Made by a program: the position numbers and the translations under genes | Notes under the pieces: model-generated | Told to the model about the DNA's origin: nothing | Database searches by the model: none | Seen by the model: only the letters and a program-made list of their open reading frames with translations | Assembly (NCBI GenBank): GCA_014378525.1 | Contig: JACMNL010000129.1 | Location: 1-33,696, forward strand | Direction of reading: 5' to 3' | Source of the DNA: Bacteriovorax sp. | Lineage (GTDB): Bacteria > Bdellovibrionota > Bacteriovoracia > Bacteriovoracales > Bacteriovoracaceae | DNA length: 33,696 nucleotides | Shown: piece after piece, positions 5,840-17,753 of the stretch | Layout of the letters: the number at the start of each line of letters is the position of its first letter | How positions within the stretch are numbered: position 1 is the stretch's first letter

Positions 5840-7111
5840 CTAAACTGGAGAACTTAAATCAACGTTTCCGATTGAGCGCTCTGAATTTGTTTTAACTTCC
5901 ATATGGAATCTGATTTTTGCCAGAGGGTTAAATGTATAACCGTCTTTTCCACGGATGATGTATTTGCGTTTTGAATCAGCATCAGTTGGCTCGATAAGTT
6001 TTCTTAAGCGGGAAACAGATGTGTAGATTAGTTTATCGTGGATTAACGGATTGTATTCGTCTTTCCAGATCATCTTAGCAAGTTGTTCTTTATCGAAGTA
6101 TGTTCCTGGATTTTTTGAAAGAAGAAATAGAATTTCAAGCAGAACGAATCTGTGTTTGAAATCGATTGTTCCCAATGATCTTTCAACAATCTTTCTGTTT
6201 GTGCGATCAAGGTATAAATCTACAGTTGAATCATTAACATCATCAATTTCAGCTTCAATCAAATGATTTAAGCGTCTGAAAATTGTCGTATCGATAGATT
6301 CCTGAGCAAGGTGGAACATGCTTAGAGCTTCATCAAAGTTTCCTGCTTTTTTAAGAGCAGTTGCTTTTCCAAAAAGGATGTAACCGTAAAGGTTCCAGCA
6401 TTTTTTTGATTGAAGATATTCGTTAGCTAATTTGTAGTAGTTAAGCGCTTTATCATTCTCATTCATTTCGATGAAAATTTTCGCGTAATACGTATACATT
6501 GCACCTGAAAGGTAGAATTTTTTGATGATTTTAAGCAGGTCGTTTAACTGGTCAAGGTATCTAAGAGATAATTCTAAATCTTTTCTGTAGAAAGCGTTTG
6601 TCGCCAGAGAAAGAAGGCATTTAGAAAGAAGTTCCGGTTCATTTTCTTCAGAAGATTTTTTGTAAGCTAACTCAAAGTTAGTCTTAGCTTCTTCAAATGA
6701 TCCCGAATAATTTTTTACAACACCAAGGTTATAAAAGAATTCCGAAGTTAGAGTTGGAAGAGCTCTTGAAAGTGCGTCCATTAACTTTTCACTTTCGCCG
6801 ATATATTTTTGTGCTTTTGTATCTTCTAATTTTTCTGACGCTATACGAATAAGAAATCCGTAAGTCTTAAGTACCGAAAACCCGTCTTTAATCGGATCTG
6901 CAAATGTAAGAGCTTTCACGAAAGACTCTTCAGCGCAAACCAGATCTGCCTTGTCATAATACACTTTTCCAAGCTGATAATATGAACGTGCAACTTCAGT
7001 TTTAGTTACAACTTGATCAAGTTTTACATCATCTTGTAAAAGACCGATATAGGGTGTGATTTCATTGGGGTTTGTTCCAACTGATAATCCTAAATCTTGA
7101 CTTGTAACCAT
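5840..7111 (-). CDS. TPR-repeat protein with C-terminal OmpR/PhoB-type winged helix (predicted transcription regulator)
   Basis: The 423-residue protein has no signal peptide. Residues about 40-275 form paired helices with TPR-like spacing (for example YYQLGKVYYDKADLVCAEES and FYNLGVVKNYSGSFEEAK). Residues about 297-397 resemble the trans_reg_C winged helix: a short strand (LDRTNRKIVE), L-E-I-L-LL-S-NPG, then EQLAKMIW, a recognition-helix-like segment YTSVSRLRKLIE and the wing YIIRGKDGYTF. The order (TPR first, DNA-binding last) is the reverse of SARP-type regulators. There is no receiver domain, so signalling is probably by protein or peptide binding to the TPRs. A GGAG site lies 8-9 nt before the ATG. 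It is transcribed divergently from thrS. Its target is unknown. Confidence 0.8.
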   Translation of the reverse strand: MVTSQDLGLSVGTNPNEITPYIGLLQDDVKLDQVVTKTEVARSYYQLGKVYYDKADLVCAEESFVKALTFADPIKDGFSVLKTYGFLIRIASEKLEDTKAQKYIGESEKLMDALSRALPTLTSEFFYNLGVVKNYSGSFEEAKTNFELAYKKSSEENEPELLSKCLLSLATNAFYRKDLELSLRYLDQLNDLLKIIKKFYLSGAMYTYYAKIFIEMNENDKALNYYKLANEYLQSKKCWNLYGYILFGKATALKKAGNFDEALSMFHLAQESIDTTIFRRLNHLIEAEIDDVNDSTVDLYLDRTNRKIVERSLGTIDFKHRFVLLEILFLLSKNPGTYFDKEQLAKMIWKDEYNPLIHDKLIYTSVSRLRKLIEPTDADSKRKYIIRGKDGYTFNPLAKIRFHMEVKTNSERSIGNVDLSSPV

Positions 7112-7169
7112 AAGGTTTTCTCCGTTTATATAAACACTTTTTTGCTCTCAATTCATCGAAGGCACCAAG

Positions 7170-7198
7170 GTCATATCATGCGACTCTTACAGCGTCAA
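7170..7198 (-). promoter_or_regulatory. Predicted promoter of the TPR/winged-helix regulator
   Basis: On the minus strand, TTGACG (7198-7193) and TATGAC (7175-7170) are separated by 17 nt, matching consensus at 5 of 6 and 4 of 6 positions. It lies about 60 nt before the regulator start codon and overlaps one of the TGTAAGA elements. Confidence 0.4.
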
Positions 7199-7230
7199 AA
7201 GCCCATTGTAAGATTTTTTCAACTGTAAGA
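7185..7230. promoter_or_regulatory. Three TGTAAGA elements in the divergent intergenic region (candidate operator)
   Basis: TGTAAGA occurs at 7207-7213 and 7224-7230 in direct orientation, the second pair extended to TGTAAGATT. It also occurs at 7185-7191 in inverse orientation. The two direct copies start 17 nt apart. OmpR-family winged helices often bind tandem direct repeats, so autoregulation by the adjacent TPR/winged-helix protein is possible (inference). Confidence 0.3.
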
Positions 7231-7239
7231 TTCAAGTCG

Positions 7240-7268
7240 TTGATTTGTATAGTTTTGATTGATATTAT
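7240..7268 (+). promoter_or_regulatory. Predicted promoter of thrS and downstream genes
   Basis: TTGATT (7240-7245), a 17-nt spacer and TATTAT (7263-7268) form a good sigma-70-type match about 45 nt before the thrS ATG. The short leader leaves no room for a T-box or other long riboregulator. Confidence 0.5.
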
Positions 7269-7316
7269 AGCAGTGTAAAAAAGTAATTATCGCCCCAATA
7301 TATTTCGGAGAATGGA

Positions 7317-9065
7317 ATGGCCAAGTACGATCTGGACACTATACGTCACTCAACTGCCCACTTAATGGCCCAAGCGGTGGCCCGTGTTTATAAAGGCCAC
7401 AACCCTCAATTCGGGATTGGACCTGTTATTGAAAACGGTTTTTATTACGACATCGATCTCGACGTCAAAATCGGCGACGAAGATTTAGAAAAAATCGAAA
7501 AGACCATGCATGAAATTATCGACGAGAAGCTGGCGATTACAAGACAGGTTATGTCTCGCGATGAATCTGTGGAGTTCTGGAAACAAAAAGACCAGCCATT
7601 AAAAGTGGAAGTGGTTTCTGACATCCCTGCTACTGAAGATATCTCTCTTTACACTCAAGGGGAATTTACTGATCTTTGCAGAGGACCTCACGTAGAAAAT
7701 ACCGGACACCTTCCAAAATTCTTTAAGCTTCTTCACACGACTGGTGCATATTGGAAGGGAGATTCAAACAATAAAATGCTTCAACGTATTTACGCTGTAA
7801 GCTTCACGACTAAAAAACAACTTGAAGACCATTTGATCTTTTTAGAAGAAGCCAAAAAACGCGACCACAGAAAAATCGGTAAAGAGATGGAGCTGTTTCA
7901 CTTTGAAACTGTTGCTCCTGCTTCTCCGTTTTTCATGCCGAAAGGAACAACTGTCTATAATGAACTTGTTCAGTTCATGAGACGCATTTACGTAAAGTAC
8001 GGGTATGATGAAGTTATCACTCCAATGCTTTTGGACTCTGAACTTTGGCATACATCAGGGCACTACGCTCACTACAAAGAAAATATGTATTTTTCTCAAG
8101 TTGATAAACGCGAATTCGCATTGAAGCCAATGAACTGCCCATGCCACATGTTAATGTTTAAGCATTACAAATACTCTTATAGAGATTTGCCAATGAGATA
8201 CGCCGATTTCGGCCGCCTTCACCGTTACGAAAGTGCGGGAGCTGTCGCGGGTCTGACTCGTGTAAGGTCTTTTTGTCAGGATGATGCTCACATTTTTATT
8301 TCTCTTGAAGGAATTCAGGAAGAAATTATCAAACTTATGGAAATGTTCTTTATTTGTTATGACCACTTCGGGTTCAAGCAAATTAAGATTGGTTTATCAA
8401 CTCGTCCTGAATCAAAAGCTGGTGACGATGCGACATGGGATGTGGCGGAAGCTGCTCTTAAAGGAGCTCTTGATAAAACAGGTCACGCTTATCATGTAAA
8501 CGTTGGTGATGGTGCTTTCTACGGGCCGAAAATTGATATTCAAATTGCGGACGCTATCGGCAGGTGGCATCAATTGGGAACGATTCAGCTGGATTTCCAG
8601 CTTCCTGATCGTTTCGACTTAAAATATACGAATGAAGAAGGTAAAGATGTCCGCCCGGTTGTCATCCACCGAGCACTTCTTGGATCTCTTGAGAGATTCA
8701 TCGGAGTTTACCTGGAGCATATCTTTGGGGTCTTTCCATTCTGGCTTTCTCCAGAGCAAGCAGTGATCGTTCCAGTTTCTACAGATAAACATTTAGCTTT
8801 CTGTAAGTCTCTGGCGCTTGATTTACGCGCCCTTGGGTACAGAATTAAAGTTGATGAGAGAAACGAAACAATGGGTTACAAAACCCGTCAGATTCAGCAG
8901 TCAAAAGTTCCATATATGCTGGTTATCGGTGATAAAGAAATGGAAAACCTGTCTGCTAGTATCCGCGGTTACGGTGACACTGCAGCAAGAGTTCTTTCAA
9001 TCGTGGAATTAAAAGAGCATTTTGCTAAGCTAAATTTGGATAGAGTTCCAGAAAAACTAAGATAG
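7317..9065 (+). CDS. thrS: Threonyl-tRNA synthetase lacking the N-terminal TGS domain
   Basis: ThrRS charges tRNA-Thr. The 582-residue protein starts directly at the N2 editing domain: TIRHSTAHLMAQAV carries the HxxxH metal/editing motif, and TDLCRGPHV follows. The class-II core has motif 1, motif 2 around RYADFGRLHRYE, the zinc ligand C274 in MNCPCH, motif 3 (HRALLGSLERFIG), and the C-terminal anticodon-binding domain ending near residue 575. E. coli ThrRS is 642 aa. The missing 60 or so residues are the TGS/N1 domain, and no upstream in-frame start exists that could restore it, since GGAG sits 6 nt before this ATG. The residue after Cys-Pro is Cys276 where E. coli ThrRS has Gly. Ddl follows after 48 nt without a terminator. 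Confidence 0.96.
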   Translation: MAKYDLDTIRHSTAHLMAQAVARVYKGHNPQFGIGPVIENGFYYDIDLDVKIGDEDLEKIEKTMHEIIDEKLAITRQVMSRDESVEFWKQKDQPLKVEVVSDIPATEDISLYTQGEFTDLCRGPHVENTGHLPKFFKLLHTTGAYWKGDSNNKMLQRIYAVSFTTKKQLEDHLIFLEEAKKRDHRKIGKEMELFHFETVAPASPFFMPKGTTVYNELVQFMRRIYVKYGYDEVITPMLLDSELWHTSGHYAHYKENMYFSQVDKREFALKPMNCPCHMLMFKHYKYSYRDLPMRYADFGRLHRYESAGAVAGLTRVRSFCQDDAHIFISLEGIQEEIIKLMEMFFICYDHFGFKQIKIGLSTRPESKAGDDATWDVAEAALKGALDKTGHAYHVNVGDGAFYGPKIDIQIADAIGRWHQLGTIQLDFQLPDRFDLKYTNEEGKDVRPVVIHRALLGSLERFIGVYLEHIFGVFPFWLSPEQAVIVPVSTDKHLAFCKSLALDLRALGYRIKVDERNETMGYKTRQIQQSKVPYMLVIGDKEMENLSASIRGYGDTAARVLSIVELKEHFAKLNLDRVPEKLR

Positions 9066-9113
9066 AATAATAAATAGCGATTGAGACATTAAAACCTAAG
9101 GATAGGGTGAAAA

Positions 9114-10127
9114 ATGAGCAAGAAAAACATACTTCTACTTTGCGGTGGAAGTGGAACAGAACATGAAGTTTCGTTGGTTTCAGCAAAGTTTGTTGAAAAA
9201 AATCTTAGAGAGATCGGTCTCTACAACGTCATTGTTGTCGAGATCGGTGCACCTAAAACAAATGATAAAACTTTTCGCATCTTAAACGCCGACGGATCTC
9301 ACGGCGAAACTGTAGAAATAAATTCTAAACGACAACTCATAGGTAAGGCAGTCATTGCTGATCTTAACTATGTTGTTCCCTGTATTCACGGGCCACCGGG
9401 AGAAACTGGAGAGATTCAAACTTATCTTGAACTCATTTCACTTCCCTATTTTGGCTGCGGCCCTGAAGCATCGTTAGTATGTTTTAATAAAGTAACATCG
9501 AAACTCTGGTTTAATGCGATTGATATTCCCAATACTCCTTTTGAATTTTTAACAAGTATTGAAGATGCTCCAAAAGCTCACAAACTTTTTGATGAACATG
9601 GAAAAGTTTTTGTTAAAGCTGCTTCTCAAGGATCAAGTGTCGGGTGTTATCCGATATCAAAAAAATCAGAACTGGATAATGCACTTAAAAATGCTTTTAC
9701 TTTTTCTGAATATGTTCTGGTTGAAAAGATGGTGACTGCCCGTGAGCTGGAAATTTCCACTTATGAGTTTGAAGGGAAAGTTCACGCAAGTGTTCCTGGT
9801 GAAATCAATTGCCCTTCTGCTTTTTATTCTTACGAAGAAAAATATAATCCAAACAGCAAGACTACAACTGAAATTGTAGCACCGGGGCTTTCAGCTGAAG
9901 TCGTATCAAACATGCGCGGATTTGCAATCAAAGCATTTAAAGCGCTGAAGCTTCGCCATCAATCACGCATAGATTTTTTCTACACTGATGACGGGAAAAT
10001 TTATCTCAACGAGATCAATACATTTCCCGGGGCAACACCAATATCGATGTTCCCGAAGATGATGGAAAATAACGGACACTCATATTTAAAATTTATTAGC
10101 GATATCATTGCAAAAGATATTCTTTAG
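9114..10127 (+). CDS. ddl: D-alanine--D-alanine ligase (ATP-grasp)
   Basis: Ddl joins two D-Ala for peptidoglycan synthesis. Family features in the 337 aa include the N-terminal GGSGTEHEVSL (H17-E18-S20), HGPPGETGEIQ (92-102), the ATP-grasp loop ASQGSSVG (170-177), and the metal/substrate end with D287 and LNEINTFPG (298-306). Mg ligands are D287, E300 and N302. The length is normal. It follows thrS after 48 nt and precedes the giant aminotransferase fusion by 11 nt, so it may be transcribed with the catabolic cassette. A different ligase activity in that pathway cannot be excluded, but the active-site motifs are those of standard Ddl. Confidence 0.9.
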   Translation: MSKKNILLLCGGSGTEHEVSLVSAKFVEKNLREIGLYNVIVVEIGAPKTNDKTFRILNADGSHGETVEINSKRQLIGKAVIADLNYVVPCIHGPPGETGEIQTYLELISLPYFGCGPEASLVCFNKVTSKLWFNAIDIPNTPFEFLTSIEDAPKAHKLFDEHGKVFVKAASQGSSVGCYPISKKSELDNALKNAFTFSEYVLVEKMVTARELEISTYEFEGKVHASVPGEINCPSAFYSYEEKYNPNSKTTTEIVAPGLSAEVVSNMRGFAIKAFKALKLRHQSRIDFFYTDDGKIYLNEINTFPGATPISMFPKMMENNGHSYLKFISDIIAKDIL

Positions 10128-10138
10128 TCGAGGCCTTT

Positions 10139-13100
10139 ATGAAATTACCCTTAATTAATAAAAATGATTCTGAATTCGGCCATGATATTTTAAAAAAATA
10201 CTACGCTGAAAATATGATTCCAGCAGAAAAGAAAACTTATCTGACTAAGCTTCGCCATTCAATCGGGCCATACATGGGGATTGAATCAAGTGACGGTTCA
10301 ACTCACTACATGCTGGATGCCGCTTCACAAATTGCAACTCTCGGTCACGGATTTAATCCGGCCGTATTTTTCGGGTCTGCAGAATTTCTTGAAAGCTGGA
10401 CGAACGATGCTACGACCAAAGAATTTAAAGACACGAAAACGGCCTATATAAATTTCTTCAATAGAAAACTGGGCTGGAAAAAAACTCATATGACGATCAC
10501 TCACTCGGGTGCTGAAGCCAATGAGACAGCACTAGGGTACTCTTACCTCTCTCGCGTAAATCCCGATGCTAACAAAGTGCTGGCCTTCGAAGGATCGTTT
10601 CATGGGCGTATGTTGGTGACGTTAGCTGCTACATGGAATAAAAGTAAACGTGAACCTTTTGAGTGGAAAAATTATCTCGCTGAGTATGTAAAATACCCCG
10701 AGCTTGAAGACAGCAAAATAAATGTCCGCTTTCCTGAATTATGGAGAGAGACATGGAATGAAGCTTCATTAATAAATTTCATGATCCCTTCGATCTGGAA
10801 TTCAGATCCGATGGTAAAAAAAGAAGTAGAAGTACTACAAAGTGTACGCGCTCAACTTTTATCAAAAAAGATTTTTGCAATTTTAGTCGAGCCTATGCAA
10901 TGTGAAGGTGGAGACTGTTATTCATCTGACAGATTTCATACTGCACTTTTACTTATGGCCAGAACTTTTAAAGTTCCAGTTATTCATGATGAAGTTCAAA
11001 CTGGATTTCACCTGGGACGTGAATTCTTCTGGCACCGTCAGTTGAATCTTAAGGGTGTTAACGGCGAGCAGATTAATCCAGACTACGTTGTCTGCGCAAA
11101 AAAAGCACAGGTTGGAATTGTATTATCTCACAAAGAAACTAAAAATATTTTTAAAGGTGAAGAGTTTTCTGTGGCCTCTACACTAAGAGGTTACGCTCAC
11201 GCCATCAGTCTTGATCAATGTCAGGCGCGCATCCTCGATATCGAGAAGCATATTGTCCCTAGAGCAAATGCTTTAATAAAAAAACACTCCCAACACATCA
11301 AACGCCTGCGCGCAAACGGATTAGCTTTTGCTTTTGACGTTGTCGATCCTGCGATGATGAATAAATTTGTCGATCTAAGATTCAAACACGGACTGCTTTA
11401 TTACCCTGCAGGAAGCCAGACATTAAGATTCAGACTTTCAACTGCATTTGGAACAAAAGACCTGGACTTTTTATTCGACAGACTCGATGCAATTTGCCGC
11501 GAACTATTTTTAAATGAACATAGTTCACTTCCTACTCATGTTGATACAGATGCTCATACTGCAGACGACAGCTATGAATGGCATCAATTATTGATTCAGA
11601 CAAAACTTTCACGAGCTCTGGGGCAGAAACTTGATATCAAGCATGTCTTCGATAAAGTGAATTCACTTTTAAGTAAAAGCGTTGAGGCCGCACAGGTAGA
11701 GCTGATGGAGATTAATGCTTCGAACTTTCTGACTTACCGTCAGGAAATCATCAATATGCAAAAAGCTGTATATGAACCTGCTCGCCAGACAGATATTGAA
11801 AAATTTGAGCACACAGTTCTGGATAAAAGTTCGTTATGTCTTGGTCTCTTAAATAAAAAGAAAAAATTAATGGGGCTGGCGTTTGCAGGTCCATTACATC
11901 TTTATCCGCTTGAGCGCGGCGTTCGTATGGACCCGCATTACAACGATAACGATACTCTTTACATGCTCGACGTAACAATAGATCCGACTCTGCGTCACTC
12001 TGGTCTTGGCAGGTCATTAAAATATGCACTTTCCGCGATGGCGATTGTAAAAGGAATCAAACGTATTCAGGGAAGAAATAGAGACCGTCTTGCAGGTGCT
12101 ATGCTCAACATCAACCTGTCACTGGGCTCTGTTGAACAAACTTATATTCGTGAAGACTATCCTGATTTTGAAGCACATAGAGATGTTTTTTATTACACAA
12201 CTAAAGTTGACTGGAAAAAACCAGCAGTTCATTTAAGTCGCGCTATCAATATTCCACTTTCTATCCAGAGTCTGGATAATACTTACATTCATTTCCAGCT
12301 TCCTTACCTGGTGAACAAAGTTTGTCTTTCTAACTTCGTGAGTGAACCATTTTTAAAAGGTATTAAGGACTTCTTGTCAGCATTGCCGGAAGATCTTCGT
12401 CATGGATATACCACTTCAGGGCAGTCTGAGTGTGTAGATAAAGTTGCAAAGGCCATTTGGGTAAAATCAGACCCGGCCACGAGAGAAAAAAACGTCAACA
12501 AAATGCTGACATTCAAAAATCATTATTTTGGTAACGGCTCGATGCTTGCGCGCTCTCTTAGTTACGAAAACGATCCGTACTTTAAAGTCACACGACTTCC
12601 GATGCCGGGTGAACTTGATTTCAGGGATGTGTTGAAGTCATGTGAAAAAGAATTCGCCACAGGTGAATACCTGGCAGTATGGGTAGAGCCTATGTTACAG
12701 AAAACGATGGAAAAAATGCCATACGAATTCCTGCGTGAACTTCGCGCTCTTGCAACTCAATATAAAGTCGCATTAATTTACAATGAAACGGCAGCTCAGA
12801 TGTACAGGTATTCAACGAAGCAATTTACCGCTTCATGCTTTCCTGAAATAGCACCTGATGCAGGAATGATTTATTTCTCAGGACAATCTGGTATCGCCTA
12901 TACGTCATCAAAATATTATTTTGAAACACCATTGATGATGATCAGTACCTGGGATGGGGATGAATTCCATTTCTTAAGCTACCACCATGCTTTTAAAAAT
13001 ATGATGGCCAATACAGACGAATACAGAGCTACAGCAAAAGCATTTCACGATAAACTGGTGGATAAACTTTCACATTATGAAATTGATGTCATTAAACTTG

Positions 13101-13225
13101 ATAATGGGTTTGGTTATTTCAAAGGCTCAATACCTGCTTCAATGAGTAAAATGTTTGTCCAGCATAATGGTATGTATCTGGTGTGCCCGAGTTTCGATGC
13201 CATGAAGGAGTATTTAGAGTCATGA
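10139..13225 (+). CDS. Three-part fusion: class-III aminotransferase, GNAT acetyltransferase, degenerate class-III aminotransferase
   Basis: This 1028-residue protein begins with a complete class-III PLP aminotransferase (1 to about 455): HSGAEANETALG, LVEPMQCEGGD, PLP-Asp D284 in VIHDEVQTG, and Schiff-base Lys K321 in VVCAKKAQVG. The EP.Q.EGGD / DEVQTG / KK.QV set resembles lysine-epsilon- and GABA-aminotransferases. Residues about 540-690 are a GNAT domain with the acetyl-CoA loop RHSGLGR (619-625). Residues about 700-1028 repeat the aminotransferase pattern (SGQSECVDKVA, WVEPMLQKTM). Here the PLP Asp is Asn882 (IYNETA) and the Lys position is Gly915/Gln916, so this copy should be inactive. 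The stop overlaps the next gene's ATG by ATGA. Likely role: acetylation plus transamination of a diamino or omega-amino acid (inference). Confidence 0.85.
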   Translation: MKLPLINKNDSEFGHDILKKYYAENMIPAEKKTYLTKLRHSIGPYMGIESSDGSTHYMLDAASQIATLGHGFNPAVFFGSAEFLESWTNDATTKEFKDTKTAYINFFNRKLGWKKTHMTITHSGAEANETALGYSYLSRVNPDANKVLAFEGSFHGRMLVTLAATWNKSKREPFEWKNYLAEYVKYPELEDSKINVRFPELWRETWNEASLINFMIPSIWNSDPMVKKEVEVLQSVRAQLLSKKIFAILVEPMQCEGGDCYSSDRFHTALLLMARTFKVPVIHDEVQTGFHLGREFFWHRQLNLKGVNGEQINPDYVVCAKKAQVGIVLSHKETKNIFKGEEFSVASTLRGYAHAISLDQCQARILDIEKHIVPRANALIKKHSQHIKRLRANGLAFAFDVVDPAMMNKFVDLRFKHGLLYYPAGSQTLRFRLSTAFGTKDLDFLFDRLDAICRELFLNEHSSLPTHVDTDAHTADDSYEWHQLLIQTKLSRALGQKLDIKHVFDKVNSLLSKSVEAAQVELMEINASNFLTYRQEIINMQKAVYEPARQTDIEKFEHTVLDKSSLCLGLLNKKKKLMGLAFAGPLHLYPLERGVRMDPHYNDNDTLYMLDVTIDPTLRHSGLGRSLKYALSAMAIVKGIKRIQGRNRDRLAGAMLNINLSLGSVEQTYIREDYPDFEAHRDVFYYTTKVDWKKPAVHLSRAINIPLSIQSLDNTYIHFQLPYLVNKVCLSNFVSEPFLKGIKDFLSALPEDLRHGYTTSGQSECVDKVAKAIWVKSDPATREKNVNKMLTFKNHYFGNGSMLARSLSYENDPYFKVTRLPMPGELDFRDVLKSCEKEFATGEYLAVWVEPMLQKTMEKMPYEFLRELRALATQYKVALIYNETAAQMYRYSTKQFTASCFPEIAPDAGMIYFSGQSGIAYTSSKYYFETPLMMISTWDGDEFHFLSYHHAFKNMMANTDEYRATAKAFHDKLVDKLSHYEIDVIKLDNGFGYFKGSIPASMSKMFVQHNGMYLVCPSFDAMKEYLES

Positions 13226-14319
13226 GTACAAATTGTAATTTTCCCTACATTCAATATCAGGCAGGAAAAACCAGCTACGACTGGGGACTTTATCACGGTG
13301 AAGAATTCAGAAGTGCTATTGGAGAGCTGACAGAAATCAGAAGAAACCTGATGCTGGCAAAAAATCCCAAACTCGCAAGTAAACTTGATGAGCTTGCAAT
13401 GGAGCAGTTTGAATTTTCCAGAAAATTTGCACCGAATCTTGCGAAAGAAATTGAAGGAATTGCCAAAGGTGCGGGCCTGTCTATTTCTGACCTGGTGGTT
13501 TTAAATAACTATACCGACTTTAGGGATATTATTCTTCCGGAAGAAGGATGTTCTACTGTTCACATCCAGACTCCTTCTGAAGTTCTGGCGGGACAAACAT
13601 GGGATATGCACAGGTCTGCAAAGAACTATATGTGTCTTATTCATGTACCAAAAACAAATGAGCATACAGCACAACTGGTTTTATCACTGGTTGGATGTGT
13701 CGGTCTTATGGGTGTGACAACTGATAATACTTTAATCGGCGTTAACAACATCAATACGACGAATGCAAAAACAGGACTAATTTGGCCGGTGCTTGTCCGT
13801 AAAACTCTTGAACAAAAAAGTTTAGGACTAATGAGATCTACGTTACTAAATGCTCCGGTGACTTCAGGGCATAATTATATTATTGCTTCGCCTGAAGGAG
13901 GAGAGCATTTAGAAATCACTCCAACGGTATCTGAAAAAGTTTCGGCACTTCAACAAGGACAGGTGGGAAGTATTTTTCATACGAATCACTGTGTAGGGTA
14001 TGAAGTTGAAAAACTGGAAGATAAAACTTCCATGAGCTCAACGACTTTTAACAGATGGAAGTTACTTTCAGATAAAACTTTTTTAGTTGGTGACCTTGAA
14101 GATTTTAAAAATCTTTTAACTGACCATGATGAATTTCCAAAATCTATATGCTCACACTTTGAAAACGGCGCTCAGGATCCTTCTTTTACATGTGGTGGCG
14201 GAGTCAGTGATTTAAAACGCGGACACCATATTTTCTGGCGCGGATGCCCTGCCCACGACAGTGATTATCGCGAATTTGAATTCTTTCTGGATGGATTAGA
14301 TTTTAAAAAGGTAAAATAG
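13222..14319 (+). CDS. C45-family autoproteolytic acyltransferase/amidohydrolase
   Basis: The protein (365 aa) resembles acyl-CoA:6-aminopenicillanate acyltransferase and related Ntn hydrolases. The expected self-cleavage point is Gly-Cys in PEEGCST, with Cys110 the new N-terminal nucleophile, matching Cys103 of the fungal enzyme in position. The segment AGQTWDMHRSAKNY just after it is the family's conserved QNWD/QTWD block, and GVNNINTT is the Asn-containing oxyanion region. ATG 13222 overlaps the upstream TGA and is preceded by AAGGAG. An open frame from 13183 lies inside the preceding gene and lacks support. No signal peptide, so it is cytosolic. In this cassette it would most simply remove or transfer the acyl group added by the GNAT domain (inference). 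Confidence 0.82.
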   Translation: MSTNCNFPYIQYQAGKTSYDWGLYHGEEFRSAIGELTEIRRNLMLAKNPKLASKLDELAMEQFEFSRKFAPNLAKEIEGIAKGAGLSISDLVVLNNYTDFRDIILPEEGCSTVHIQTPSEVLAGQTWDMHRSAKNYMCLIHVPKTNEHTAQLVLSLVGCVGLMGVTTDNTLIGVNNINTTNAKTGLIWPVLVRKTLEQKSLGLMRSTLLNAPVTSGHNYIIASPEGGEHLEITPTVSEKVSALQQGQVGSIFHTNHCVGYEVEKLEDKTSMSSTTFNRWKLLSDKTFLVGDLEDFKNLLTDHDEFPKSICSHFENGAQDPSFTCGGGVSDLKRGHHIFWRGCPAHDSDYREFEFFLDGLDFKKVK

Positions 14320-14320
14320 T

Positions 14321-15508
14321 ATGAGCACACTTCCCTATTATATTTCATGGGCAAAACAAAAAGGTGCAGACACTTTTAATATCAAATCTGTTGATGGAGT
14401 GAAAGTCATCACAGATGATGGTCTTGAACTTTTTGATATGACATCAATCAGCTATCAGGCCCATTTCGGACAAAATCATCCGACGATTATAAAACATATG
14501 AAGGCCCAGCTCGACTCGATTCCCATGAGTTCTCCAAAAGGAATTTATCCGGGAAAAAACGAAGCGACCTATGAACTTCTGCAATACATGGGAAAACTCG
14601 AAGGAAAAATCTTCTACACAACAGGTGGTGCTGAAACCGTTGAGAATGCCCTTAAAATCGCCCGCGATATAACGAAGAAGAAAGTCATCCTTGCCCGCAA
14701 AAATTCATATCACGGGGCCACACAAGGTGCTCTGGTTGCAACCGGTGACTGGAGACACGACTCTCATCAGCTTCCTGAAGACTGGGTCGTAAGAATTCCC
14801 GAGCCAAATGATCCGGATGCTTTGAAAAAAACAAGAGAGATCATCGAAAAAGTCGGTGGAAATAATATTGCGGCCATCATCATTGAAACAATCACCGGTG
14901 GTAACGGAGTTTATTACGGTGACCAGGCATGGTGGGACGGCCTCTCAGCTCTGTGCAAAGAATTTAAAATGCTTTTAATCATGGATGAAGTTGTCTGTGG
15001 TTTTGGCCGGACAGGGAAACCATTCGGTTATATGCACTACAATGTTCATCCGGATATTATCTGCCTTGCTAAAGGTATTACCGGCGGCATGGTTCCGTTT
15101 GGAGCTTTGTGGACAAGTGCTGCGATCGCTGAGCACTACGAAGAAAATATTCTTTCATGCGGACTTACTAATTATGCCCATCCATTGGGAATGGCCGCGA
15201 TGAAAGGTGTGCTGGAAATTGTTAAAGACCAGAAATTTCTGGAAAATCTGACTACCGTAGAAAAAGTATTTTTAGACGAACTGGAAAAAATAAAAACTCT
15301 TAAAAACGTAAAAGCTGTAAGGGTTAAAGGAATGCTGGCGGCCGTCGACCTGACGTCTTCCGTTGAAGGAAAAAAATTCTTCAAAAAAGGACTCTATCTG
15401 GTTTCTCAAACCAACAGGATTATTTTAGCTCCTCCATTAATTATTAATGCGAATGAATTAAAGACTGCTATGAAAGCCGTCTTTGAAGTTTTACAAGATG
15501 CTAATTAA
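14321..15508 (+). CDS. Class-III PLP-dependent aminotransferase
   Basis: This single-domain, 395-residue fold-type I aminotransferase has all class-III features: TGGAETVENALKIAR, the substrate/cofactor segment NSYHGATQGAL, PLP-Asp D222 in LIMDEVVCGFGRTG and Schiff-base K251 in CLAKGITGG. It starts 1 nt after the upstream stop and is followed by the CoA-transferase genes after 12 nt. It belongs to the broad omega-amino-acid transaminase group, as does YodT of the Bacillus kamA operon. Substrate candidates are 4-aminobutyrate or an acetylated beta-amino acid, and sequence alone does not decide. It is clearly distinct from the aminotransferase half of the upstream fusion, so the cassette holds two active copies and one dead one. 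Confidence 0.9.
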   Translation: MSTLPYYISWAKQKGADTFNIKSVDGVKVITDDGLELFDMTSISYQAHFGQNHPTIIKHMKAQLDSIPMSSPKGIYPGKNEATYELLQYMGKLEGKIFYTTGGAETVENALKIARDITKKKVILARKNSYHGATQGALVATGDWRHDSHQLPEDWVVRIPEPNDPDALKKTREIIEKVGGNNIAAIIIETITGGNGVYYGDQAWWDGLSALCKEFKMLLIMDEVVCGFGRTGKPFGYMHYNVHPDIICLAKGITGGMVPFGALWTSAAIAEHYEENILSCGLTNYAHPLGMAAMKGVLEIVKDQKFLENLTTVEKVFLDELEKIKTLKNVKAVRVKGMLAAVDLTSSVEGKKFFKKGLYLVSQTNRIILAPPLIINANELKTAMKAVFEVLQDAN

Positions 15509-15520
15509 GGAAATATTTCT

Positions 15521-16225
15521 ATGAAAAGTAACTCTCCTAAAGTTTTTAAAGACGCGGCCGCTGCACTTCACGACATTAAATCTGGAATGACTTTAATGAG
15601 CGGTGGATTCGGTCTGTGTGGTATCGCAGAAAACTGCATTGATGCCCTTACTTTAATCGATGTTAAAGACCTTACAGTCATTTCCAATAACATTGGAAAC
15701 TCAGGACGTGGTCTCGTTAAAATTCTTATTCAGGATAAAATTAAAAAAGCTTACTGTTCTTACGTCGGCGGAAATCCTGACCTCGAAAAAAGACTTCTAT
15801 CAAAAGAAATTGAAGTAGAACTGGTTCCTCAGGGCACTTTTTCAGAACGTATACGTGCTGCAGGAATGGGCGTCAGAGCTTTTTATACTCCGACAGGATA
15901 TGGAACTCTTATCGCTGAAGGAAAAGATGTAAAGATGTTCGACCGGCCTTGTATTTTAGAGACGGCCCTTCACGCTGACTTTGCTATTATTAAGGCACAA
16001 AAAGGCGATACATACGGAAACCTCTGGTTTAAAGAAACTGCGAGAAATTTTTCACCACTCATGGCCATGGCCGCAAAGATTACAATAGTGGAAGTGGAAG
16101 AGTTGGTTGAAGTTGGAGAAATTCCTGCTGAAGATATTCACCTGCCTGGACTTTTTGTTCAGAGAATTTTTCAGGGTAAAAATTATAAGAATGATATTGA
16201 ATTCTTGATAACGGAAGGTGTTTAA
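15521..16225 (+). CDS. scoA: 3-oxoacid CoA-transferase subunit A
   Basis: This is the alpha subunit of a family-I CoA-transferase (succinyl-CoA:3-oxoacid or acetate:acetoacetate type). The 234-residue sequence has the N-terminal GGFGLCGIAENCIDAL (GGFG..G), the YVGGNPDLEKR segment, GTFSERIRAAGMGVRAFYTPTG and FIKAQKGDTYGN-like region. Together with subunit B it moves CoA from succinyl-CoA or acetyl-CoA onto a 3-oxoacid, allowing thiolysis. It follows the aminotransferase by 12 nt and precedes subunit B by 1 nt, so equal synthesis by coupling is likely. YodR and YodS hold the same place in the Bacillus kamA operon. No thiolase is encoded in this window. Confidence 0.93.
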   Translation: MKSNSPKVFKDAAAALHDIKSGMTLMSGGFGLCGIAENCIDALTLIDVKDLTVISNNIGNSGRGLVKILIQDKIKKAYCSYVGGNPDLEKRLLSKEIEVELVPQGTFSERIRAAGMGVRAFYTPTGYGTLIAEGKDVKMFDRPCILETALHADFAIIKAQKGDTYGNLWFKETARNFSPLMAMAAKITIVEVEELVEVGEIPAEDIHLPGLFVQRIFQGKNYKNDIEFLITEGV

Positions 16226-16226
16226 A

Positions 16227-16853
16227 ATGAGCTGGACTAATGAACAGATGGCCGATGAAGTTATCACATTTTTTAAACCTTATAGTTCCGTTAATCTGGG
16301 AATTGGAATGCCGACAGTAATTGCAGAGAGAATGCCTGCAGATCTAAACGTCATGATCCATTCGGAAAACGGTGTTCTGGGTGTTAGCGGTAGACCAAAA
16401 AAAGATTCTGTCTCTCCTACTTTAATCAACGCCGGAAAAGAAACTGTTCAAATCGGCCCTGCGGCAAGTTTCTTCGACAGTGCAATGAGCTTTGGAATGA
16501 TCCGCGGAGGACACATCGATTATTGTGTTTTAGGCGGAATGGAAGTTGATGTTGAAAGAGGTCTTGCCAACTGGATGGTCCCTGGAAAAAAAATAACCGG
16601 AATGGGTGGGGCCATGGATCTGGTTAACGGATCAAAACAAGTCATCATCATGATGAATCACTTCAGTAAAGACGGAACAGCAAAACTTCTCAAAAAGTGT
16701 GTGCTGCCATTAACAGGAAAAGAAGTCGTCGATATCGTCGTTACTGAAATGGGTGTCTTTAAACCAACAGGTTCATCGTTCAAAGCTCTTAAACTTGCTC
16801 CGGGTGTAAGTTTAGGTGACTTAAAGATGGATTCCTCACTTCTCAGTAATTAA
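16227..16853 (+). CDS. scoB: 3-oxoacid CoA-transferase subunit B
   Basis: The beta subunit (208 aa) carries the catalytic glutamate in SENGVLG (E47 with this start), which forms the glutamyl-CoA thioester. Other signatures are GIGMPTVIAERMP, GPAASFFDSAMSFGMIRGGH, LGGMEVD and GLANWMVPGKKITGMGGAMDLV, close to succinyl-CoA:3-oxoacid transferases. A GTG start at 16218 would overlap scoA. ATG 16227 has GGAAGG 8 nt upstream and starts 1 nt after the scoA stop, so I prefer it. No terminator is visible in the 60 nt before the next gene, which may be partly co-transcribed. It closes the cassette that begins at 10139. Confidence 0.94.
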   Translation: MSWTNEQMADEVITFFKPYSSVNLGIGMPTVIAERMPADLNVMIHSENGVLGVSGRPKKDSVSPTLINAGKETVQIGPAASFFDSAMSFGMIRGGHIDYCVLGGMEVDVERGLANWMVPGKKITGMGGAMDLVNGSKQVIIMMNHFSKDGTAKLLKKCVLPLTGKEVVDIVVTEMGVFKPTGSSFKALKLAPGVSLGDLKMDSSLLSN

Positions 16854-16913
16854 ATGTAAGTTGTAGAAGCCAGCAGTGAAAGGGATGATTTAAGAAAAAT
16901 CAAAGGATGATTT

Positions 16914-17753
16914 ATGCTTAAAATTTTCGTGGCACTTGCTCTTGCAACGACAATAATGTCTGCGCACGCTCTTACCAATTCTGTTGTTGCAGAATCTCCT
17001 GACTGGTCTTCAGTTGCACTCATTAAAAGCGAAGCTCCTGACTCTCACGGCGATACCACTCCAGGTTACTGTAATGCTACTTTCATCGGTAGAAATATGA
17101 TGGTCACTGCAGCCCATTGTGTAGTGCTAGCTTATATTTCTAAAGACAACCTGATCACAATTCAGACTGGTTATTATAAATACATTACACGCCCTTCTGA
17201 CGGCGCTACAGTTCGTATCGGTTATGTGAAAAAAGATTCTTTCGATAGACACGTCAACATTGAACTTCCTAAAATACTTACAGATAAAATTGCCAGACAA
17301 GGTGAAAAAGCAGAACTAGGGCCTACGGATGATTTTGCTATTTTATGGTGGAATGATGACACTCCTGAGATTAAAGACATGAAGTTTGCTGAAGTCACTA
17401 CTCCAGCGGAATCCTCGCTTATTTCAAAAAATATTTCTGCTTATCCACTAAAAGCTGTGACGATTAATTTTTTTAATGAAATGAGCACTGACACAAAACG
17501 TATGGCCGATTTAAACAGCTACAAGTGGAATAACGGATATGTATATTCAAAATCAAACTCACGAGTTGAAGAAGGCGACAGCGGATCTCCTCTTTTTGCA
17601 AAAATAAATAATACAATGAAGATCTTCGCAGTTGTTAAAGGTAAGGCGACAACAATTTTTGATAACTGGGATGTCTATCCGGCAGTTAACAATAATATTT
17701 GCGACTTAAATAAAAGAATGCCTTCTGATATGAAGATAAAAAGTTGTAATTAA
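16914..17753 (+). CDS. Secreted trypsin-like serine protease (S1 family)
   Basis: The 279-residue protein has a signal peptide (KIFVALALATTIMSAHA, likely cut near residue 20) and a chymotrypsin fold. The catalytic His68 lies in VTAAHC, Asp140 in DDFAILW, and Ser223 in EEGDSGSPLF, so the triad is complete. There is no long propeptide. The first mature residues are not the classical IVGG activation sequence, so zymogen activation may differ from trypsin. An AAGGA site lies 6 nt before the ATG. A strong terminator follows 26 nt after the stop. Such proteases are common in predatory bacteria, where they can digest prey protein. That role is an inference. Confidence 0.93.
   Translation: MLKIFVALALATTIMSAHALTNSVVAESPDWSSVALIKSEAPDSHGDTTPGYCNATFIGRNMMVTAAHCVVLAYISKDNLITIQTGYYKYITRPSDGATVRIGYVKKDSFDRHVNIELPKILTDKIARQGEKAELGPTDDFAILWWNDDTPEIKDMKFAEVTTPAESSLISKNISAYPLKAVTINFFNEMSTDTKRMADLNSYKWNNGYVYSKSNSRVEEGDSGSPLFAKINNTMKIFAVVKGKATTIFDNWDVYPAVNNNICDLNKRMPSDMKIKSCN

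Follow-up and report, generated by a model that had tools for sequence, protein, structure and literature searches.

A fusion-enzyme cassette of Bacteriovorax as a candidate downstream half of lysine catabolism via acetylated beta-lysine

A stretch of 33,696 nucleotides from Bacteriovorax sp. (assembly GCA_014378525.1, contig JACMNL010000129.1; referred to here, over its whole length, as the window) contains at positions 10139..16853 a five-gene cassette that encodes a fusion protein (FUS), a C45-family hydrolase (C45), a class-III aminotransferase (AT2) and the two subunits of a 3-oxoacid CoA-transferase (ScoA and ScoB, together ScoAB). The cassette is real, as open reading frames (ORFs) and family matches agree on five compact genes that overlap or are separated by 12 nt or less, just as the original prediction, made from the letters of the window, had described them. 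We propose, with moderate confidence, that the cassette provides the downstream half of a B12-independent catabolism of lysine, which would run via acetylated beta-lysine to 4-aminobutyrate (GABA). In our best reading the route would be a known one, of the Bacillus yod or Pseudomonas kind, and the variant made of a fusion enzyme and a C45 hydrolase would be new.

In the proposed pathway KamA, encoded elsewhere (its gene is found and its activity inferred), would convert L-lysine to L-beta-lysine, and the GNAT acyltransferase domain of FUS would place an acyl group, most likely acetyl, on the terminal amine, which would prevent later products from cyclising. An aminotransferase, most likely AT2, would then yield 3-oxo-6-acetamidohexanoate, ScoAB would load CoA, and a thiolase encoded elsewhere would release acetyl-CoA and a 4-acetamidobutyryl unit. 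C45, self-cleaved at a conserved cysteine, would remove the acetyl group to give 4-aminobutyrate, and this would be transaminated by AT1, the N-terminal aminotransferase domain of FUS, which has the residues of GABA aminotransferase (GABA-AT) and lysine epsilon-aminotransferase (LAT). The pathway would give candidate genes to an acetylated beta-lysine route that was described biochemically decades ago. It would also offer a case, open to testing, in which one half-pathway has taken over from another downstream of a shared KamA step, and it points to a way for some Bdellovibrio-like bacteria to use lysine independently of vitamin B12.

A fusion enzyme with one predicted active site

FUS probably forms a pseudo-heterodimer within a single chain and has one active site, for which the two ends of the chain, AT1 and a degraded class-III aminotransferase domain (psiAT), would come together with the GNAT domain between them. 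The pattern behind this proposal is, as far as alignment can tell, the new element here: AT1 has the predicted active residues without a threonine motif, and psiAT the converse. In an alignment of 29 FUS proteins, 11 of them from the genus of the window (excluding L043, which is cut off at a contig end, L062, which duplicates the contig of L036, and L063; the L055 row is partial), AT1 keeps R157, E256, D284 and K322 in every row, so that the Schiff-base lysine (K322) and the aspartate at the pyridine nitrogen (D284) of class-III enzymes are both present; R157 and E256 correspond to the functional arginine and glutamate residues of GABA-AT and LAT. At the position of the catalytic aspartate psiAT has asparagine in 27 rows, glycine in one and histidine in one, and it has no lysine in the block (residues 905-922) that matches the region of the pyridoxal phosphate (PLP) lysine, although a block that starts at residue 903 adds a lysine in two rows. 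The motif STWxG[DN] is found in 0 of 29 AT1 domains and in 29 of 29 psiAT domains, where T937 is likewise conserved in all 29. In class-III enzymes the PLP phosphate is bound by a threonine of the partner subunit, T297 in Escherichia coli GabT (PMC9309667, excerpt), and Thr323 is the corresponding interface threonine in another enzyme (PMC6502798, excerpt). By our alignment T330 of LAT, a numbering taken from the title of a T330S entry, sits in the segment NSTWGGN. Since AT1 lacks the threonine motif and psiAT lacks the catalytic residues, these reciprocal losses are most simply explained by one shared active site.

Two observations speak against the one-site model. AT1 residue 348, outside the motif, is threonine in four of the 29 proteins, that of the window included (in the other rows A, F, L, M, V, S or I). 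In the profile alignment, moreover, T937 had no AT1 residue of that loop opposite it. The original prediction had called the third FUS domain a pseudo-aminotransferase; a degraded aminotransferase it is, but probably one that serves as the other half of the AT1 active site. If the one-site model is true, FUS would show how nature can break the dimer symmetry of a PLP enzyme within one polypeptide, here with a second enzyme built in.

The domain assignments draw on profiles and on models. PF00202 (class-III aminotransferase) covers FUS residues 52-451, while the GNAT and psiAT domains of the window's protein fall below the Pfam gathering scores (19.1 against 20.7 bits and 13.9 against 30.5 bits, respectively). 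Across the FUS proteins, at E<=1, Acetyltransf_1 matches the GNAT domain in 27 of 29 and Aminotran_3 matches psiAT in 19 of 24, and hhalign relates psiAT to AT1 at 97% (24 and 23 rows). The AlphaFold model of whole FUS has a predicted local distance difference test score (pLDDT) of 92.6 and a predicted template modelling score (pTM) of 0.93, and its nearest folds are LAT, which is best, and GABA-AT, which is almost as good. The GNAT fold is present: the model of this domain has a pLDDT of 89.2 and a Foldseek match to RimI (5isv, E 1.3e-10). The doubt raised originally over an AblB-like GNAT was well placed, as TIGR03827 (the AblB/YodP type) has no match in the window's genome at E<=0.001 and hhalign gives a profile probability of 24.7%, and we reject the identity of the FUS GNAT with AblB. 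A separate AblB above cut-off is encoded in five FUS genomes, G015, G018, G023, G042 and G050 (loci L139, L140, L141, L146 and L147), at a distance from both kamA1 and the cassette; in G042 a further member of the KamA family is close to it.

C45 matches the C45 proenzyme model NF040521 with 141 bits (cut-off 85), and its predicted nucleophile is conserved in an alignment of 26 rows; maturation by self-cleavage and deacetylase activity are predicted. Its ORF opens at 13183, and the ATG at 13222, which overlaps the FUS stop codon as ATGA, is the better start. At the other junctions C45 and AT2 are 1 nt apart, AT2 and scoA are 12 nt apart, and scoA and scoB overlap by 8 nt. By sequence the best solved relative of AT2 is taurine:2-oxoglutarate aminotransferase (6jix), and those of ScoA and ScoB are succinyl-CoA:3-ketoacid transferases. 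No YodQ-type deacetylase is found among the five cassette genes, to which the search for YodQ was confined.

Gene order and the link to KamA and KamD

FUS is found in 34 of 97 genomes, that of the window (G000, 3.6 Mb) included; 32 of these are among the 59 of the window's family (f1) and two are in family f7. One of them (G050) is counted from a 124-residue match at a contig end. When an f7 protein served as query for 368 genomes of the phylum, 59 had FUS: 55 belong to f1, two to f7 and one each to f26 and f27. Gene order was to be compared across relatives, and FUS-C45-AT2-scoA-scoB occurs in this order in 28 of 31 loci, or 27 of 30 distinct ones, since L036 and L062 are one contig; this count includes L055, where FUS runs off the contig, and L058, where scoB reaches the contig end. 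The loci that lack the full order are L043, whose contig ends inside FUS, and L060 and L061, which have FUS-C45 only. In 17 FUS-negative genomes of f1 whose nusA region was read there is no match to any cassette gene; thrS or ddl is visible in 14 of these regions, one of them on a contig that breaks off within ddl. FUS and C45 are adjacent in the loci read from all four FUS-bearing families, and this conserved pairing suggests that addition of an acyl group by FUS and its removal by C45 are functionally paired.

One locus without the full order is informative about the pathway. In G064, a genome of another family than that of the window, FUS-C45 lies on a 15.8-kb contig (L060) among enzymes of the same kinds, namely a class-III aminotransferase and a CoA-transferase pair, and also beside a thiolase; this genome has a KamA. 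The CoA-transferase subunits and the thiolase are 34-42% identical to those of a lysine-fermentation cluster in G059 (L218), and the nearest solved structure to the aminotransferase is 3i4j, the structure listed for B. subtilis YodT (PMC6522883, excerpt).

As originally noted, neither kamA nor a thiolase gene lies within the window. The original prediction depended on a lysine aminomutase elsewhere in the genome, and a candidate is there, together with five thiolases above cut-off. G000 has two KamA-family genes, KamA1 on contig C36 and L002, and the cassette is on contig C70. KamA1 aligns to the lysine 2,3-aminomutase 2A5H and matches its functional residues D293, D330, R134 and K337 and the cluster cysteines of the CxxxCxxC motif. 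L002 scores closer to the AblA-like-2 and EpmB models, without reaching the cut-off of either.

Within f1, KamA1 (E 5.6e-202 or better) is found in 32 of 32 genomes with FUS, where E is 2.8e-206 or better, and in 4 of 27 without it (Fisher p 1.2e-12). At E<=1e-40 a KamA is found in 42 of the 59 f1 genomes, 32 with FUS, nine with KamD and one alone (G010, 84% complete), and the 17 KamA-negative genomes have neither FUS nor KamD. KamD (PF09043), a marker of lysine 5,6-aminomutase (KamDE), is present in 17 of the 97 genomes but in none of the 34 with FUS, G000 included. All KamD genomes except G075 have a KamA match (16 of 17), and among KamA genomes KamD occurs in 0 of 33 with FUS against 16 of 28 without. 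Three of the four f1 genomes with KamA1 but without FUS have KamD, and six of the nine KamD genomes of f1 have a KamA from another clade; in G037 kamA stands with kdd, kamB, kamC, kamD and kamE. Among 24 further f1 genomes with FUS, KamA1 is found in 20, and completeness does not exceed 84% in the remaining four. These data fit the reading that lysine 5,6-aminomutase takes the place of the cassette in related genomes, which, as part of the whole proposal, we hold with moderate confidence.

Genes like that of succinate-semialdehyde dehydrogenase (SSADH; E<=1e-100) were found in 22 of 22 sampled f1 genomes with FUS and in 5 of 13 without. However, we give this association little weight, since the SSADH cut-off was passed in none of 57 genomes and G064 and G078 have no SSADH-like genes.

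Lysine-fermentation genes were unexpected in this phylum. Those of G037 occupy L135 8150-16122, and L218 of G059 has kamA, kdd and kamE with a CoA-transferase and a thiolase. A ketol-acid reductoisomerase-like gene adjoins kamA in G037 (L135 7156-8148), and a homologue adjoins kamA in G031. In G328 and G329 kamA is followed by a small gene without a Pfam match and then by a protein kinase gene (L215 5706-11332 and L216 2-3993), and in L215 a FeoB gene precedes kamA.

Known systems and alternative explanations

The Bacillus cluster has the gene order kamA-yodP-yodQ-yodR-yodS-yodT, and the likeness to it that was originally drawn holds for a class-III aminotransferase, the CoA-transferase pair, a GNAT fold, a deacylase role and a KamA in the genome. 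It does not extend further: here kamA is unlinked, the GNAT is not AblB-like and is flanked within a single chain by an intact and a dead aminotransferase, and the deacylase role would fall to C45. The unlinked kamA and the different GNAT place the cassette outside the yod operon type; KamA and YodT of Bacillus are treated in PMC6522883 (excerpt). The cassette also matches the reaction set with which Pseudomonas, in the work of Barker and co-workers, reportedly degrades beta-lysine via acetyl-beta-lysine and 4-acetamidobutyrate, with two separate transaminases and a deacetylase, although here the acyltransferase and one transaminase would be in one chain; we know of no genes for that route. 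With lysine fermentation (KamA, KamDE, Kdd, KamB and KamC) it would share beta-lysine from KamA as well as a CoA-transferase and a thiolase, but fermentation has no acylation step, whereas the route proposed here is not acylation-free, and none of the 34 FUS genomes has KamD (the genome-wide search took in KamD but neither KamE nor Kdd). AT1 resembles the LAT Rv3290c and GABA-AT in fold and in the motifs FHGR, EGGD, DEVQ and KK; those enzymes are homodimers with two sites, whereas FUS joins an intact half and a dead half in a single polypeptide. In serine palmitoyltransferase an active PLP subunit is completed by a dead homologue (LCB1/LCB2), but this is another group of PLP enzymes, with two chains and no GNAT. 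In open-licence literature, by title and the start of the abstract, we found no paper that dealt with the fusion or with how these bacteria break down beta-lysine.

Several observations weigh against the pathway via N6-acetyl-beta-lysine. The step assigned to each aminotransferase is inferred from resemblance only, and the GNAT of FUS is not AblB. KamA1 reaches 290.4 bits against TIGR03820, below the cut-off of 525.4, though it is above that of the subfamily model TIGR00238, and the two aspartates are kept in all 62 KamA-family proteins compared and thus do not separate lysine mutases from EpmB-like proteins. There is no KamA match in the 31 cassette loci, and KamA1 was never beside the cassette in the loci read. 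KamA1 occurs without FUS in G122 (56% complete) and G123 (84%), both outside the 97 genomes searched for KamD. G078 (90% complete) has FUS-C45 but no KamA-family match, either as an exception or through a gap in a metagenome-assembled genome, and has an AblB-like gene just under cut-off; in G328 (f26) and G329 (f27) FUS-C45 are adjacent and the other three genes are not nearby. Ancestry is a further concern. In a NusA tree of 54 of the 59 f1 genomes (G010, G013, G014, G026 and G042 had no NusA match), 14 of the 15 genomes that have neither FUS nor KamD cluster together, joined by a single KamD genome (support 80). FUS needs six changes on this tree and KamD seven, of which strongly supported branches force one and two, and with only one contrast on such branches no sign test can reach significance. 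A tree of 62 KamA proteins, from which G085 is missing for want of a usable ORF at its locus, places the FUS genomes in two KamA clades far apart; six changes of the FUS label are needed there, four of them forced by strongly supported branches. Because the association is clade-wise and p values ignore ancestry, the Fisher values overstate the link, and the exclusion between FUS and KamD has been repeated a few times, not dozens.

The cassette might instead act on another diamine or diamino acid (ornithine, diaminobutyrate or putrescine) by acylation, transamination and deacylation, with the link to KamA due to shared ancestry, and the clade-wise association, the KamA-less FUS-C45 of G078 and the separation of kamA from the cassette would all suit this. 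However, FUS is found with KamA proteins of two distant clades, and the exclusion of KamD holds among KamA genomes themselves; we regard this explanation as unlikely. One possibility that retains the substrate is acetylation of beta-lysine by the GNAT at the 3-amino group, after which AT1, in the manner of a lysine 6-aminotransferase, would turn the 6-amine into an aldehyde. Oxidation by an aldehyde dehydrogenase would give 3-acetamidoadipate, C45 would deacetylate it and AT2 would form 3-oxoadipate, from which ScoAB and a thiolase would yield succinyl-CoA and acetyl-CoA. This would use the same genes, in a reaction order that follows the gene order; moreover, the best fold match of FUS is LAT, the CoA-transferase models passed are of the PcaIJ/ScoAB subfamily, the separate AblB of five FUS genomes could mean that the FUS GNAT has another regiochemistry, and a thiolase gene beside an aldehyde dehydrogenase gene exists in G000. 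That cluster, however, is also present in the FUS-negative G033 and looks like a set of phenylacetate genes, the GABA-AT fold match almost equals that of LAT, the best solved relatives of ScoAB are succinyl-CoA:3-ketoacid transferases, and to our knowledge no N3-acetyl-beta-lysine route to 3-oxoadipate has been described; we hold this variant to be quite unlikely. The original N6-acetyl-beta-lysine proposal fits the division of genomes by KamA, FUS and KamD and the genes of G064, but is not separated by them from the N3-acetyl route. The aldehyde dehydrogenase/thiolase pair (contig C88 of G000) was not kept as dedicated pathway genes, since its cluster is present in G033 and also holds a 3-hydroxyacyl-CoA dehydrogenase-like gene.

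KamA and the cassette could instead serve synthesis, either of acetyl-beta-lysine as an osmolyte or in modification of elongation factor P (EF-P). A KamA-AblB pair, probably for the osmolyte, does occur in the phylum (L148 4869-7003, G081), and AblB is also found in the five FUS genomes. Such synthesis would presumably have no use for a CoA-transferase, two aminotransferases and a hydrolase, and G000 has L002 as a separate, more EpmB-like gene (under the cut-offs); we consider synthesis very improbable. A search for EF-P beside kamA in other families met three small neighbour genes (L210, L215 and L216) with no Pfam match. A bolder form of the favoured breakdown pathway, modelled on ornithine acetyltransferase in arginine synthesis, is that one-site FUS and C45 form a closed acyl shuttle, in which C45 would return to newly arriving beta-lysine the acetyl taken off the last intermediate, all within an unrecognised B12-free branch of beta-lysine catabolism that displaces KamDE. 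Known relatives of C45 can move as well as hydrolyse acyl groups; even so, we think such a shuttle distinctly unlikely.

Neighbouring genes and coordinates

Table 1. Features of the cassette and its upstream neighbours; positions are those of the window.
Feature	Position	Strand	Basis or remark
FUS, AT1-GNAT-psiAT fusion, 1028 aa	10139..13225	+	ORF and family matches, model
AT1, class-III aminotransferase domain of LAT / eukaryotic GABA-AT type, FUS residues 1-456	10139..11506	+
Codon of K322, predicted PLP lysine of AT1	11102..11104	+	conservation and alignment to LAT
GNAT N-acyltransferase domain, FUS residues 475-705	11561..12253	+
psiAT, degraded class-III aminotransferase domain, FUS residues 700-1028	12236..13222	+
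Codon of T937 in ISTWDGD, putative counterpart of the class-III threonine for the partner's PLP phosphate	12947..12949	+
C45-family autoproteolytic acyltransferase/hydrolase	13222..14319	+	ATGA overlap with FUS stop
Codon of predicted C45 nucleophile Cys (EEGC-S)	13549..13551	+	Cys in 26/26
AT2, class-III aminotransferase	14321..15508	+
ScoA-like 3-oxoacid CoA-transferase subunit A	15521..16225	+	TIGR02429 above cut-off
ScoB-like 3-oxoacid CoA-transferase subunit B	16218..16853	+	TIGR02428 above cut-off
thrS and ddl, housekeeping, just upstream of FUS	7317..10127	+

As ddl ends 11 nt before the start of FUS, the run of genes may begin at thrS-ddl. We rejected ddl as a cassette-specific ligase, since it is the only ddl found in G000. 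Promoter and terminator scans of window positions 7000-17000 stayed at the level of shuffled sequence, and no lysine riboswitch was found at gathering scores in the window, L149, L060 or L239, the one match being a tRNA in L060. Plasmid records gave 18 matches, none over more than 80% of FUS, and the ten listed cover AT1 only, within residues 41-456.

The ThrS of the window (7317-9065) is short, at 582 aa, with Pfam matches to the SAD, core and anticodon domains and none to a TGS domain, and ThrS lengths are similar in most of the relatives' loci. Directly after scoB lies a gene for a trypsin-like protein (16914-17753), which is matched in only some loci of the same genus.

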